In this document: positions 6,348 to 40,427 of the stretch, piece by piece
Layout of the letters: every line of letters begins with the position of its first letter
How positions within the stretch are numbered: the first letter of the stretch is position 1
From: a virus
IMG/VR virus record: IMGVR_UViG_3300009087_000001
Coordinates: 1 to 40,427 of that record
Strand: one strand, 5' to 3'
Length of the DNA stretch: 40,427 bases
The notes under the pieces: generated by a model
Database searches by the model: none
What the model saw: only the letters and a program-made list of their open reading frames with translations
Told to the model about the DNA's origin: nothing
Program-made: the position numbers and the translations under genes

Positions 6348-6353
6348 AAAAAC

Positions 6354-6381
6354 TTGACAAAAAACCATACACAGGTATAAT
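6354..6381 (+). promoter_or_regulatory. Sigma70-type promoter P3, start codon 6 nt after -10
   Basis: TTGACA at 6354-6359 and TATAAT at 6376-6381, 16-base spacer. The next ATG is at 6388, where transcription from such a promoter would be expected to begin. The message for the following gene would thus be leaderless or nearly so. Confidence 0.8.
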
Positions 6382-6387
6382 GAAAAT

Positions 6388-6639
6388 ATGAAAACAATAT
6401 TTAGAGACGAAAAAAGACCATATATAGACGAAGAGGGTAATTTGATAATTCCAACAAGCATAAAGTTTGGTGGAGAAACTCTTCCTACACTCAAACCGAG
6501 AGAATGGTTTTATTTATTGTATGAAAAAACAAAAGACAATAAAAGGGGAGATTTAATAAAATATAAAAAGGGCGTTTGTGGCTCAGCACCAACATTAAGT
6601 AGAATTAAAAAATCATTAAAACAAAAAGGATATTCATGA
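6388..6639 (+). CDS. Hypothetical protein from a likely leaderless message, 83 aa
   Basis: I do not recognise this protein. It is basic, with a WFYLLYEKTKDNKRGDLIKY stretch and a C-terminal SRIKKSLKQKGYS helix that could contact nucleic acid. Its start codon lies six bases behind the TATAAT box of promoter P3. The stop overlaps the start of the replication protein gene (ATGA-type overlap), so it is probably translated together with it. Confidence 0.6.
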   Translation: MKTIFRDEKRPYIDEEGNLIIPTSIKFGGETLPTLKPREWFYLLYEKTKDNKRGDLIKYKKGVCGSAPTLSRIKKSLKQKGYS

Positions 6640-13886: not shown

Positions 13887-14936
13887 ATGAAGATAGCGTT
13901 GTTAAATTTTGAGTTAATGAAAGTTGGGGGCGTAGTGACATTTCAGCGTCAAATTTATGATATGTTTAAAGACGGTGGGCATATTCCAATAATATTTTAC
14001 ACGGGAGGAAAAAATAAAGCGTCTAATGAACTGAATAAGGACGGATATTTCACAGTTAACTACCAAAAGAAAGACTGGGTTAAAATGAAAAGAAGTTTGG
14101 AAGCGTTTGATGTTATACTGATACCGCAGGCGTTTTGTAAAAAGGGAAGTCCTGAGTATTTATACCCACTGAAAGGGAAAAAGGTTTTCATAGTGATTCA
14201 CGACCCTGCCGAGGATAAGTTAAAAGACCGTGCATTACTAAAGTTAATATTAAATAATTACAAGAAACTGAAAATTGATTTAAGGGCTATTTTTATTAGA
14301 CCCGCTCCGAAGAAGTATTACGAGGATAATTACAAATTGGAAAAAACGATTTTCATAAAACATCCGTATAAAAGAAGGTGCAAGTTGCAAGAAAAAAAAG
14401 AGGATTTAATTATAAGCACTACAAGGATAGATTTTGACAAACATATTGAATACATTGTGGCGAATATGGATAGATTTGAAGGAAGGTTGGAAATATATAG
14501 CAGTTGGATAAACAGAGTTTACGAATGGCATATTTTGGACGGGAGATATAATTGGAAAAGAAGATGTTATTGTGGAGGATTCGATTTTCACGAAATGGAA
14601 AAGATTTATTCAAGAGCAAAAGTGATGATTGATATGAGCCATATTGCAGATGACGGTGGAGGAACTCAATACACTTTTTTGGAAGCTATGGATTATGGGG
14701 TGGCGATTGTTGGAAACGAAAAGTGGAATACGAAGTATGGCGAAATGCGACCCGATAAAAATTATTTATTGGCTAACGAAGGAAACTTAGCTGACAAGGC
14801 AAACGAATTATTAAAAAGTAACATTAAAAGAAAAGAGTTGGTTCAGAACGGGTATGAGTTATTAAAGATACATAATTACACTCAAATCCTTCCTGAATAT
14901 ATTGACTTTTTAAAAAAAAAAGATGAAAACATATAA
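13887..14936 (+). CDS. Glycosyltransferase, GT-B fold (GT4-like)
   Basis: GGVVTFQRQIYDMFKDGGHI at the N-terminus is the acceptor-side glycine loop of GT-B enzymes. In the second half, DGGGTQYTFLEAMDYGVAIV corresponds to the donor-binding EX7E-like motif of GT4-type transferases, followed by the closing helices. The enzyme would move a sugar from a nucleotide donor to an unknown acceptor. It sits between the radical SAM enzyme and the small terminase, so modified DNA is an attractive acceptor; virion or host-surface sugars are alternatives. I chose the ATG at 13887 over the GTG at 13884. The 3' end overlaps the small terminase gene by 14 bases. Confidence 0.8.
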   Translation: MKIALLNFELMKVGGVVTFQRQIYDMFKDGGHIPIIFYTGGKNKASNELNKDGYFTVNYQKKDWVKMKRSLEAFDVILIPQAFCKKGSPEYLYPLKGKKVFIVIHDPAEDKLKDRALLKLILNNYKKLKIDLRAIFIRPAPKKYYEDNYKLEKTIFIKHPYKRRCKLQEKKEDLIISTTRIDFDKHIEYIVANMDRFEGRLEIYSSWINRVYEWHILDGRYNWKRRCYCGGFDFHEMEKIYSRAKVMIDMSHIADDGGGTQYTFLEAMDYGVAIVGNEKWNTKYGEMRPDKNYLLANEGNLADKANELLKSNIKRKELVQNGYELLKIHNYTQILPEYIDFLKKKDENI

Positions 14937-15387
14937 TGATAAAACTAAACATTGGAAAGAAATCTCAAAAAAATTGAAGGGGTGGGAAAGGCGTTTAATT
15001 GAGCTAAGAAATTCCGGTGCCGGATATAACGAAATAAGGGATTTATTACAAAGGGAATTTCCTAATCAAAAAAAAGGATTTAAAACGAATCAGCAATTAA
15101 GAACATTACTTTATAAGGGCGGAAGATTAAGCAAGGAATATAATATATATAGTGAAATGATGGCGGAAGAGAGTTTTGAGCAAGGGCAGTTGATTTTAAA
15201 AAATATTTTCAAGCAAGCCACAATGACGATTGCTAATTTGTTGAGCAAAAGCACGAATGATGCGATAAGATTAAATGCTGCTAAGGAAATATTGGCAAGG
15301 AAATTAGGAACGCCCGTTCAAATGATAGAAAATAAAGATTCCGAGGAGTTAGAAGAGTTAAGGGAAAAATTAAAAGATATTTTATGA
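14923..15387 (+). CDS. terS: Small terminase subunit (probable)
   Basis: The protein sits directly before the large terminase. Residues 15-65 form a helix-turn-helix type DNA-binding part (WERRLIELRNSGAGYNEIRD), followed by helices with ARKLGTPVQM and an acidic C-terminal helix, the typical order for a ring-forming terminase small subunit that recognises the packaging site. The assignment rests on length, layout and position. Its TGA overlaps the ATG at 15384, the natural start of the large subunit. Confidence 0.7.
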   Translation: MKTYNDKTKHWKEISKKLKGWERRLIELRNSGAGYNEIRDLLQREFPNQKKGFKTNQQLRTLLYKGGRLSKEYNIYSEMMAEESFEQGQLILKNIFKQATMTIANLLSKSTNDAIRLNAAKEILARKLGTPVQMIENKDSEELEELREKLKDIL

Positions 15388-16852
15388 AAAAAAAAACAAA
15401 TTAAAACCTATTGATATAATTTTAAGTTGTTTTCAGATAAACGATAATCCCGCTAATGAAGTTTTAACGCCGACACAAAAACTAATTTTTGGGGAATTGA
15501 TTGAAAGAAAAAACAAAAGACTTCAGATTGAAAGCTCTACACAATATGGGAAAAGTTTAACAGTAGCGTTAGCGTGTGTGTGGCTTGCTTGTATGAAAGG
15601 AAAAGTAGTGGCGGTTGTAGCACCGAATGCACAAAAAGCTAGGATTATAATGAGATATTTTATTGACCATTTGGGGGATAGCCGTTTATTTTATTCAAGG
15701 CTTGAAGTTGGCACACGATTAGAGCGGTTGAGAAAAGAAGAGAGTAAGGAAAGAATAATGTTAAAGGGGAATGGTGGTATTTATGTGTTGTCTACAAATG
15801 AAAGAAGTTTATTGAAAAGTTTTGAAAGTGCGATGGGCTTCGGGGCGGAAATAACAATACTTGATGAAGCGTGTTTAGTAAGTGATAATTCGGAAGCGTC
15901 TATTTATAGAATGATTGCGGGGAAAAAGGATGCTTTCTATTGTAAAATTGGAAATCCGTTTTACAGGACAGAACCATTTAGCCATTTCTTTAAGTCAAGT
16001 AATAATCCAAAATATAAAAAATATGTAATTAATTATAAGGTTGGGTTAAAAGAGGGGCGATACACTGAAGAATTTATTGAAGAAGCGAGAGGGAAACCAT
16101 TTTTTGATGTTTTATTTAAGTGTGAGTTTCCGCCAGAAGAAGAAGTTGACGACAAAGGGTATAGAAGACTATTAACGATTGAGCAGATTAAAAATGCCTT
16201 TGTTGATAAATTGCCAGAATTTTATGCGGGTAAATTTAGATTGGGTTGTGATATTGGGCGGGGAGGAAACTTCAATGCATATGTGGGCAGGGATAATTCT
16301 TATATGTGGGTAAATGGAATAAATAAAAGCACGGATTTAATGACAAATGTAACGGAAATAGAAAAGGCGGATGCAGATATAAATGCGATTGACGACATTG
16401 GCGTTGGCGGGGGCGTAGTTGATAGATGTAGGGAACGGGGGATTTATGTTATTCCAGTTGTTGAGGGAGGCAGTGCGGAGGAGAATACTGTTTTTGCGAA
16501 TATTAGAAGCGAGTTATTTTTTAGATTTAAAGAATGGATTTTATCAGGCGGGAAATTATTGCGGAGTGACCATTGGTTGTTATTAAATGAAATTAAATGG
16601 AAAAAAAACTCAGCAGGTAAATTTATGATTGAGCCGAAAGATGAAATGAAAAAAAGGGCGAGGGGAATGATGTCATTATTGGGTTCGGATAGCCCCGATG
16701 TTATAGATGCTGGGAGCTTAACCTTTATAAGTGATAATAAACCAAAGGTGGAATTCTTAGAAGCAGAAGCGGATGAGCCGAAAGTGGGAGTTTTAAGAAA
16801 AATTAAAGACTTAGAAAATAAAATAGTAAATAAAAAAGATTTAGGAGTTTGA
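15384..16852 (+). CDS. terL: Large terminase subunit, start codon separated by a -1 frame
   Basis: The packaging motor: an ATPase that pumps DNA and an RNase H-like nuclease that cuts it. The STQYGKSLTV P-loop, the ITILDEACL Walker B strand, the nuclease GCDIGRGG strand, IDDIGVGGGVVDR and the final DVIDAG aspartate are all present. The body frame is open from 15386 on and encodes the conserved NPANEVLTPTQKLIFGELIE N-terminus, but contains no ATG there; the first in-frame TTG is at 15497. The expected ATG (15384, ATGA overlap with the small subunit) is followed by ten A and is one frame off. One extra A would join them. Slippage on the A10 run, an atypical start codon or an assembly error could explain it. 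Confidence 0.9.
15387..15396 (+). other. A10 homopolymer at the terminase start
   Basis: Ten A follow the ATG at 15384. Eleven would place that ATG in frame with the whole terminase. Runs of this length are known to make RNA polymerase slip and to cause sequencing and assembly errors. Confidence 0.75.
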
Positions 16853-16877
16853 CGATAAGTATTTATAATTATATAAT
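16849..16877 (+). promoter_or_regulatory. Sigma70-type promoter P5 before the structural genes
   Basis: TTGACG at 16849-16854 and TATAAT at 16872-16877 with a 17-base spacer. It overlaps the terminase stop and would start the portal/capsid transcript near 16884. The leader contains a G8 run at 16890-16897, followed by GTTAACAATAAC, which could form a small hairpin. Confidence 0.7.
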
Positions 16878-16919: not shown

Positions 16920-19025
16920 ATGATTAAAGAATTTTTTGAAAAGATTTTAAATAGAACAAAATACTTTTTTAGCGGAAATCTTTTAGTGTCGGGAATGGAT
17001 TTGCCGACAGCGTCCACGAAAGATTATCTTGAAAGTTTTAGGGCGTCTTCTCTAGTGCATTCTTGCACAAAAAAAATAGGAGAAAAGATGTCTACGATTG
17101 AATACGAGTTATATAGTTTACGGGGGCTTAATGCGAAAGAAATAGAACAGCATGAGATACTTGATTTATTAGCTAAGCCAAACAGTTTAATGACGGGAAG
17201 TCAGCTGGTTGAAATAACTTCTATTTATTTGACGCTATTAGGAGATTGCTATTGGTATAAAGCGAGGAGTAAAAATAAACAAATTATAGAGTTGTGGTTA
17301 ATGCGACCAGACTTAACAAGCATAGTTCAAGCTAAAGACGGAAGCGTTGCGGGGTATAAATTTAGAAACGGGGCGAATGCAATTATCTATCCGACGGAAG
17401 ATGTAATCCATTTCAAAGAGCCAGATCCACTATCAGATTATTATGGTTATTCAGCGGTTAAGTCAGCCATGGAAGTTATTCGGGCGGATGTTTACGCTAA
17501 GAAATGGAATACCCGATTTTTTTACAATTCCGCTAGACCAGACGCAATCTTAACGACTAAGCAAGAGATTGGAAAAGAAGACAGGGATGAGATAAGGCAG
17601 AAGTGGACAATGAAATACGGGGGTTGGGAAAATGCCCAAAAAGTTGCGGTGCTATCACACGGATTGGAATATAAGCAAGTGTCCGTTACTCAAAAAGATA
17701 TGGACTTTGCGAATATGAGAATTGCTAACCGTGATGATGTTTTGATGTCTTTAGGCGTTCCGAAAAGTATTGTGAGTGTTACGGATGATGTTTCTAGGGC
17801 GAACGCTGATGCGGGAATTTATGTTTTCTTGTCAGAAACGATTAAGCCGAAAATGGAAAAAATGGTTGATATTCTTAATCAGTTTTTAATTACTGATTTT
17901 GGCGAGGATTTATTATTATTATCAATAGATCCAACGCCCGAAGATAATACTGCTTTAGATGACCATTATGTAAAGGCTTATAACAAATGGTTGACAGTTA
18001 ATGAAATAAGAATAGAGCAGGGTTATGATCCCATTGACGGGGGAGATATTTTATATATGTCCGCTAATAATAAAGACGGAGAAGAAAAATCAATTATTGA
18101 AATTGGGGGAGATGTCAAGGCGAAAGATTATTATAATAAGAAAAAGGAAAAGAGATTAAGGGAAATTTACAAGAGAGCAATGCGAGGGCGGAAGCTGTTT
18201 AGGCTAAAAGAAAATATGGTAGATAAAATTACAATCAGTATTTCTCAAGAAATAGATAAAATAATTAAAAACAAAAATAATGAAAACGAAAAAGATATAG
18301 TTTGGAAAATATTTGATGAGCGATTACAGAAGTGGGATAAAAAGTTTAGAAGTTTAATGGATTCATTATTTAGAAGTCAAGAAAAAAAAGCCATTAAGGA
18401 ATTGGAAAAAATAAAGCCGAACAAAAAAGCTAAGGGCAATGATTTGGGCTTGCTTGATTTTAAAAAAGAAGTTAATATATTTATAAAAAAAGCAACGCCA
18501 GTGATTAAGAGTATTGTAGCGGAAGCGGGCAATTTAGCTTTACAAGAAGTTGGAAAAAAAATAAAAAAAGATTTTGATATTAACGATCCGATGACAGCCG
18601 AGTGGATTGATAAAAAAGCGATGAAGTTTGGCGAGGAGGTTAATGAGACAACTATAAAAAAATTAAAAGCAACTTTGGCGGAAGGAGTTTTAAAAGGCGA
18701 AAGTATTGCCCAATTAAAAAAGCGGGTTGAAGATTTATTTGAAATGTGGTATACTGGGAGAGATAAAACTATTGCGAGAACAGAAGTTTTATCTTCCAAT
18801 AACGCAGGGAGTTTATTTGGCTATGAGCAGTCGGGGGTAGTAGAATATAAAGAATGGTTAGCGACAAGAGACGCTAGGGTAAGAGACAGCCATAAATATT
18901 TGGATGGCGAAAAGGTATTACTTAATAAAAAATTTAGCAATGGATTAGAATACCCTGGCGATCCGAACGGAAGTCCAGAGGAAATAATAAATTGTCGTTG
19001 CACTTTAATACCGATAATAAAATAA
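16920..19025 (+). CDS. Portal protein fused to a MuF-type minor head protein
   Basis: Residues 15-400 are an HK97-type portal: SLVHSCTKKIGEKMSTIEYE, LLAKPNSLMTGSQLVE, GDCYWYKARS, DVIHFKEPDPLSDYYGYSAV, and ANRDDVLMSLGVPKSIV. A lysine-rich helical connector follows. Residues about 600-701 are a Phage_Mu_F domain: TIARTEVLSSNNAGSLFGYE, LATRDARVRDSHKYLDGE, and the final NCRC. The portal forms the dodecameric DNA gate; MuF proteins sit inside the head near the portal. In most phages these are separate adjacent genes, so the 701-residue fusion is notable. It has no ribosome site of the Shine-Dalgarno type. Confidence 0.88.
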   Translation: MIKEFFEKILNRTKYFFSGNLLVSGMDLPTASTKDYLESFRASSLVHSCTKKIGEKMSTIEYELYSLRGLNAKEIEQHEILDLLAKPNSLMTGSQLVEITSIYLTLLGDCYWYKARSKNKQIIELWLMRPDLTSIVQAKDGSVAGYKFRNGANAIIYPTEDVIHFKEPDPLSDYYGYSAVKSAMEVIRADVYAKKWNTRFFYNSARPDAILTTKQEIGKEDRDEIRQKWTMKYGGWENAQKVAVLSHGLEYKQVSVTQKDMDFANMRIANRDDVLMSLGVPKSIVSVTDDVSRANADAGIYVFLSETIKPKMEKMVDILNQFLITDFGEDLLLLSIDPTPEDNTALDDHYVKAYNKWLTVNEIRIEQGYDPIDGGDILYMSANNKDGEEKSIIEIGGDVKAKDYYNKKKEKRLREIYKRAMRGRKLFRLKENMVDKITISISQEIDKIIKNKNNENEKDIVWKIFDERLQKWDKKFRSLMDSLFRSQEKKAIKELEKIKPNKKAKGNDLGLLDFKKEVNIFIKKATPVIKSIVAEAGNLALQEVGKKIKKDFDINDPMTAEWIDKKAMKFGEEVNETTIKKLKATLAEGVLKGESIAQLKKRVEDLFEMWYTGRDKTIARTEVLSSNNAGSLFGYEQSGVVEYKEWLATRDARVRDSHKYLDGEKVLLNKKFSNGLEYPGDPNGSPEEIINCRCTLIPIIK

Positions 19026-40193: not shown

Positions 40194-40349
40194 ATGAAAC
40201 TTTACTTTCACTGTATTGTGTGCGAGAAGAAGTGGGGCAATCCGAAAGGAATGATTATAAAAACTTTTTGCCCGAAATGTTTTAGGTTAATTAAAGAAGA
40301 ACGAGAAAGGAGGCAAAATGAAACTGATTTTTGTGGATGTCCGAAATGA
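40194..40349 (+). CDS. Small zinc-ribbon protein, 51 aa
   Basis: CIVC at residues 7-10 and CPKC at about residues 26-29 form a zinc ribbon; two further cysteines (CGC) lie near the C-terminus. CAAGGAGGACGAA provides a strong ribosome site. The frame continues through the start of the terminal repeat and overlaps the next gene (start 40318, equal to position 14) by 32 bases. Probably a small regulator or adaptor; function unknown. Confidence 0.65.
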   Translation: MKLYFHCIVCEKKWGNPKGMIIKTFCPKCFRLIKEERERRQNETDFCGCPK

Positions 40350-40427
40350 AGAAAAGGTTGGTTGTTATCAGGAGGACGGTAGAGTTTATTACTGCTGTGA
40401 AAAAAAGTGCTTTCAAGACAAGGTAGA
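40305..40427. repeat. Terminal direct repeat, copy 2
   Basis: Exact copy of bases 1-123. It contains the end of the zinc-ribbon gene and the first 110 bases (40318 on) of the 53-residue gene that is complete at 14-175. Confidence 0.95.

Follow-up and report, generated by a model that had tools for sequence, protein, structure and literature searches.

The window analysed here is a 40,427-nucleotide stretch of viral DNA (IMG/VR record IMGVR_UViG_3300009087_000001) whose ends are joined by a 123-bp direct repeat (1-123 = 40305-40427). The record gives no completeness, but it is probably a closed circle or complete phage genome of about 40.3 kb, with genes for portal, protease, major head and tail proteins and several glycosyl- and methyltransferases. 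Our subject is the junction of its two terminase genes, around which the following features lie:

14923-15387, + strand: terS, probable terminase small subunit, 154 aa (phrog_2538, E 7e-4, a weak match), directly preceding terL
15385-15387, + strand: TGA stop codon of terS, overlapped by the ATG at 15384-15386
15384-15386, + strand: ATG, putative start codon of terL, forming an ATGA overlap with the terS stop; its position matches that of an in-frame ATG in relatives L077/L083, L086 and L130
15387-15396, + strand: run of ten A (A10) followed by C, the proposed slippage site; equal in length in a second assembly and in sister species L008
15384-15404, + strand: unslipped reading, MKKKTN and a stop, as translated in the frame of the ATG
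15397-16852, + strand: terL, encoding the terminase large subunit; its frame is -1 with respect to the ATG at 15384 and open from 15374
16849-16877, + strand: sigma-70-like promoter by consensus match, TTGACG-17-TATAAT, between terL and the portal gene
16920-19025, + strand: portal protein fused to a Mu F-like domain (Pfam PF04860, PF04233)

The terL start site

The product of terL belongs to the terminase large subunit family, as evidenced by matches to Pfam Terminase_6N (5.7e-5, above cut-off) and phrog_2 (3.3e-22) and by a Walker-A-like motif, STQYGKS; its sequence matched none of the solved structures. The preliminary description of this DNA had noted that the terL frame lacks an ATG ahead of the conserved N-terminus, and this holds more broadly than was stated: between 15374 and 16852, the first 41 codons contain no ATG, GTG or TTG, the first TTG (15497) already falls within conserved sequence, and no ATG occurs until 73 codons in. 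This sets terL apart: in every other + strand ORF of 100 codons or more, a start codon follows the upstream stop within 21 codons. The TTG at 15497-15499 was considered as a start and rejected, as it sits inside the conserved string FGELIE and the codons upstream of it are conserved. ATG is the start codon nearly throughout the genes of this phage, and a Shine-Dalgarno-like motif precedes just 3 of 39 genes.

As also described earlier, the ATG of the ATGA overlap with the terS stop, with ten A behind it, stands one base out of the terL frame. That frame is -1 relative to the ATG at 15384 and +1 relative to terS, and is open across the terS/terL junction. The earlier suggestion that eleven A would restore the frame is borne out by translation: by frame arithmetic, one extra A in the message yields a TerL of 489 aa that begins M-KKKNKLKPIDIILSCFQINDNPANEVLTPTQKLIFGELIE....

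The window holds two A10 runs and no longer run of A. The other one (14912-14921) is found where a glycosyltransferase gene ends, immediately ahead of the terS start, and position 14914 within it (A or C) is the single base that differs between two assemblies of this virus. In the early region, three repeats (1237-1303, 2501-2567 and 6348-6414) each carry a perfect TTGACA-16-TATAAT promoter consensus. The leaders of the window genes are A-rich, and the promoters look sigma-70-like.

The out-of-frame start among relatives

A sister species from another metagenome (L008) has the same arrangement, TATG-A10-CAAA, with the same -1 offset. The linkers behind the run differ by 6 nt, a multiple of three, such that the frame relation is kept in both viruses. 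TerL of the two is 73% identical over 421 comparable codons (about 27% different), with identities of 79, 87 and 55% by codon position in the gene, and codons 15410-15496 are conserved as protein with both L008 and L077. By these codon comparisons, terL is under protein-level constraint, also ahead of its first in-frame TTG. The terS genes of the two viruses can hardly be aligned. Exact blocks of at least 18 nt are common to the window and L008 elsewhere too, so that shared letters around the run would by themselves say little, and the frame offset is the stronger point. In trees of both TerL and the portal protein, the window and L008 are sisters (92/94 and 89/95, respectively) with the in-frame L083 outside: as sister lineages they count once, and the out-of-frame state is, on these trees, best seen as a single event that has been retained since the two split. 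A caveat on L008 is that 46 nt are deleted out of frame from its terL at about 1586, at the site of a stretch (NPFYR-EP-SHFF) that is conserved in L083 and other relatives. Whether it reflects faulty assembly or a broken gene copy, the deletion makes L008 a weaker witness.

We read 73 distinct TerL N-terminal sequences around the TQYGK motif from fetched loci. All but two have an in-frame start 42-118 codons upstream (71 sequences, with ATG in 69 of them). The exceptions are the window and L008, and ten A occur in that stretch in these two alone; the other 71 have runs of nine A at most. In the close relatives L077/L083 and L086, as well as in L130, the in-frame ATG is at the place that matches ATG 15384. 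After one slip, the window would read MKKKNKLKPIDIILSCFQ and L008 MKKKNKKIDTILSLFQ. The preliminary description had offered, as a case against slippage, related phages that use an in-frame ATT, ATA or TTG start without any run; we looked for such a case among the relatives and did not find it, the close relatives using an in-frame ATG.

Scans of viral contigs for the ATG-A-run-CAAA pattern, both exact and of variable length, recovered only the window virus, L008 and unrelated genes (in L011, L012, L104, L105 and L106). A single-protein scan of genome contigs gave no match, an alignment-based scan of genome contigs retrieved two distant relatives of TerL plus a single weak match, and searches with the head protein and the TerL C-terminus found no further close relative spanning the terL start. 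One contig, L004, begins at TerL residue 64 and is thus uninformative about the start. Counting against slippage, an ATG-A10-C string opens an ordinary in-frame gene in L010 (MKKKT...).

Further into the gene, TerL of L008 (1059-1481) and L005 (2110-2548) is seemingly interrupted by a naturally split intein: the candidate N-part ends in a stop, the C-part has its own ATG and ends in HNC, and there are weak Pfam intein-splicing matches. We dropped the notion of an L008 intein frameshifted by sequencing errors, since each of the two parts, N and C, has an ORF of its own in both L008 and L005. The window terL has no intein. In four more distant relatives (L049, L053, L054 and L057), an intein-like insertion of ~330 residues lies inside the TerL motif TQYGK-S.

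Explanations other than slippage

Homopolymer runs are the usual site of sequencing and assembly errors, and a single base would make everything here ordinary: with eleven A as the true length in both viruses, terL would start normally. However, a second IMG/VR contig of the window virus (L003), 30.9 kb long, differs by one substitution and no indel and has ten A at the terL start, meaning that every A-run in that span is equal in length in both assemblies, and L008, from another metagenome, has a run of the same length. Because the second assembly and the sister species agree, an error is less likely. Also against an error, 22 runs of at least eight A (8-10 A) lie inside window ORFs and none interrupts its ORF, and in L008 the genes for TerS, portal, protease and head proteins are all unbroken. 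To be set against this are the other break in the L008 terL and the circumstance that the two assemblies of the window virus may not stem from separate samples. On the agreement of these assemblies, a chance assembly error appears unlikely, and we regard error in general as an unlikely account of the locus.

We give less credence to either of two further explanations, between which we do not distinguish in probability. In the first, terL would use a non-AUG start, most likely the ATT at 15410-15412 (+ strand), and slippage would not be needed. The window and L008 both have this ATT, but in relatives the aligned residue is an internal Ile/Val (M-N-K-I-D-T-I in L130, ...K-K-E-V-D-F in L077), and no Shine-Dalgarno motif lies upstream of it. 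Moreover, the relatives with a complete start all use ATG, GTG or TTG (ATG in 69 of 71), and the starts of the window phage are themselves nearly all ATG. In the second, the run would be a real mutation of variable length, ten A representing the off state of a phase-variable gene or a decaying gene in a defective virus, with in-frame copies elsewhere in the population. Although A10 runs change length easily and the terL of L008 is broken elsewhere, the off state would then be the consensus in both species, in a gene that is otherwise constrained and, being essential for packaging, ill suited to switching; besides, the window genome appears complete, with its other genes intact.

A +1 ribosomal frameshift at the terS stop, to which the +1 offset and the open frame across the junction would lend themselves, was rejected as highly improbable: the codon before UGA differs (UUA in the window, AUA in L008) and offers poor +1 re-pairing, there is no Shine-Dalgarno-like element, and relatives encode TerS and TerL as separate proteins rather than as a TerS-TerL fusion.

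Probable slippage on the A10 run

The out-of-frame start stands ahead of a frame that is constrained as protein in two species, and for one of the two a second assembly shows it as well. We consider it probable that terL is made through slippage on the A10 run. This part of the preliminary description gains from the out-of-frame ATGA and A10 held in common with a diverged sister while 71 of 73 N-termini are normal and lack ten A. The role in timing that it had proposed, with slippage holding terminase back until late, is not supported, as slippage sets a constant fraction and not a time, and the sigma-70-like promoter right after terL (16849-16877) could allow separate transcription of the structural genes that follow.

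We infer the occurrence of slippage, together with the machine that slips, its rate and any benefit, from the arrangement of the locus. Ribosomes would start terL at the ATG (15384), probably by coupling to the end of terS translation at the TGA that it overlaps, and a one-step slip on the run would be needed to reach the terL frame. Most likely, the host RNA polymerase would slip, adding one A to part of the transcripts; alternatively, the ribosome would slip by -1 on the AAA codons, with the identical 489-aa protein as the result. We would assign about two thirds of our confidence in slippage to RNA polymerase and about one third to the ribosome. Messages that have not slipped would encode nothing beyond MKKKTN, a peptide of no obvious use, so that the run would throttle TerL, relative to TerS, at a constant level.

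Bacterial RNA polymerase slips on A-runs of this length class. For poly-A transcriptional slippage, for which we required a run of about nine or more A or T, the locus offers ten A, one added base joins the start codon to the conserved ORF, and the run and its offset are conserved between diverged homologues (two lineages, one event). No phage RNA polymerase was found among the window ORFs scanned, and near-perfect sigma-70-type promoters (TTGACA-16-TATAAT) occur three times in the window, making the host polymerase the likely enzyme. For ribosomal slippage, a heptamer A AAA AAA lies in the right frame for -1 frameshifting (ATG AAA AAA AAA ACA). However, stimulators of the dnaX/IS3 type (an upstream Shine-Dalgarno-like element and/or a downstream stem-loop) were not seen: folding revealed no RNA structure downstream of the run (z-scores of -0.13 in the window and 0.04 in L008), and no Shine-Dalgarno-like element is at a useful distance from it, which mildly favors transcriptional slippage. 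A-runs can nonetheless slip ribosomes without stimulators.

It is possible, though we put this forward tentatively, that obligatory slippage at the terL start codon has become fixed in this phage lineage as a throttle on the packaging ATPase, each TerL molecule requiring a slipped message or a slipped ribosome and the neighboring terS, portal and head genes being exempt. If so, an essential phage motor would be made only via slippage, with the infidelity of polymerase or ribosome setting its dose in place of a weak start site, and genes of this kind would be overlooked or given wrong starts by gene callers. An ATG directly followed by A10 would also be a simple natural test case of how far an essential gene can rely on slippage, in a phage without Shine-Dalgarno leaders.

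Functional poly-A slippage is already known, but it would be unusually placed where translation of an essential packaging gene starts. Frameshifting to -1 on A-rich slippery sites is familiar from dnaX and the IS3 family, with which the window shares the direction of the shift and the tandem AAA codons, but not the Shine-Dalgarno-like stimulator or stem-loop (such sites are reviewed in PMC5009743). Transcript insertions arise in A/T runs (PMC5574713), and in tssM1 of Citrobacter rodentium, transcriptional slippage on A11 gives 20-25% frameshifted product (PMC4256274). As in the window, a long A-run there leaves the full-length product out of frame and one added A restores it; however, slippage in tssM1 is proven whereas ours is inferred, and the tssM1 run comes late in the gene with both products used, whereas the window run is at codon 2 and its unslipped product has six residues. 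In Blochmannia, poly-A frameshifts are described as kept in functional, otherwise intact genes (PMC3017870, citing Tamas 2008 and Wernegreen 2010). The likeness extends to an AT-rich genome, an A-run frameshift common to species and an otherwise intact gene, but those are endosymbiont genes under drift, whereas the window has a phage packaging gene with the run directly after its start codon. Recoding has also been proposed for another phage terminase gene, that of Streptomyces phage Hau3, where bypassing (PMC5009743) is tied to a UUA codon inside the gene, in contrast to the A-run at the start codon of the window terL.
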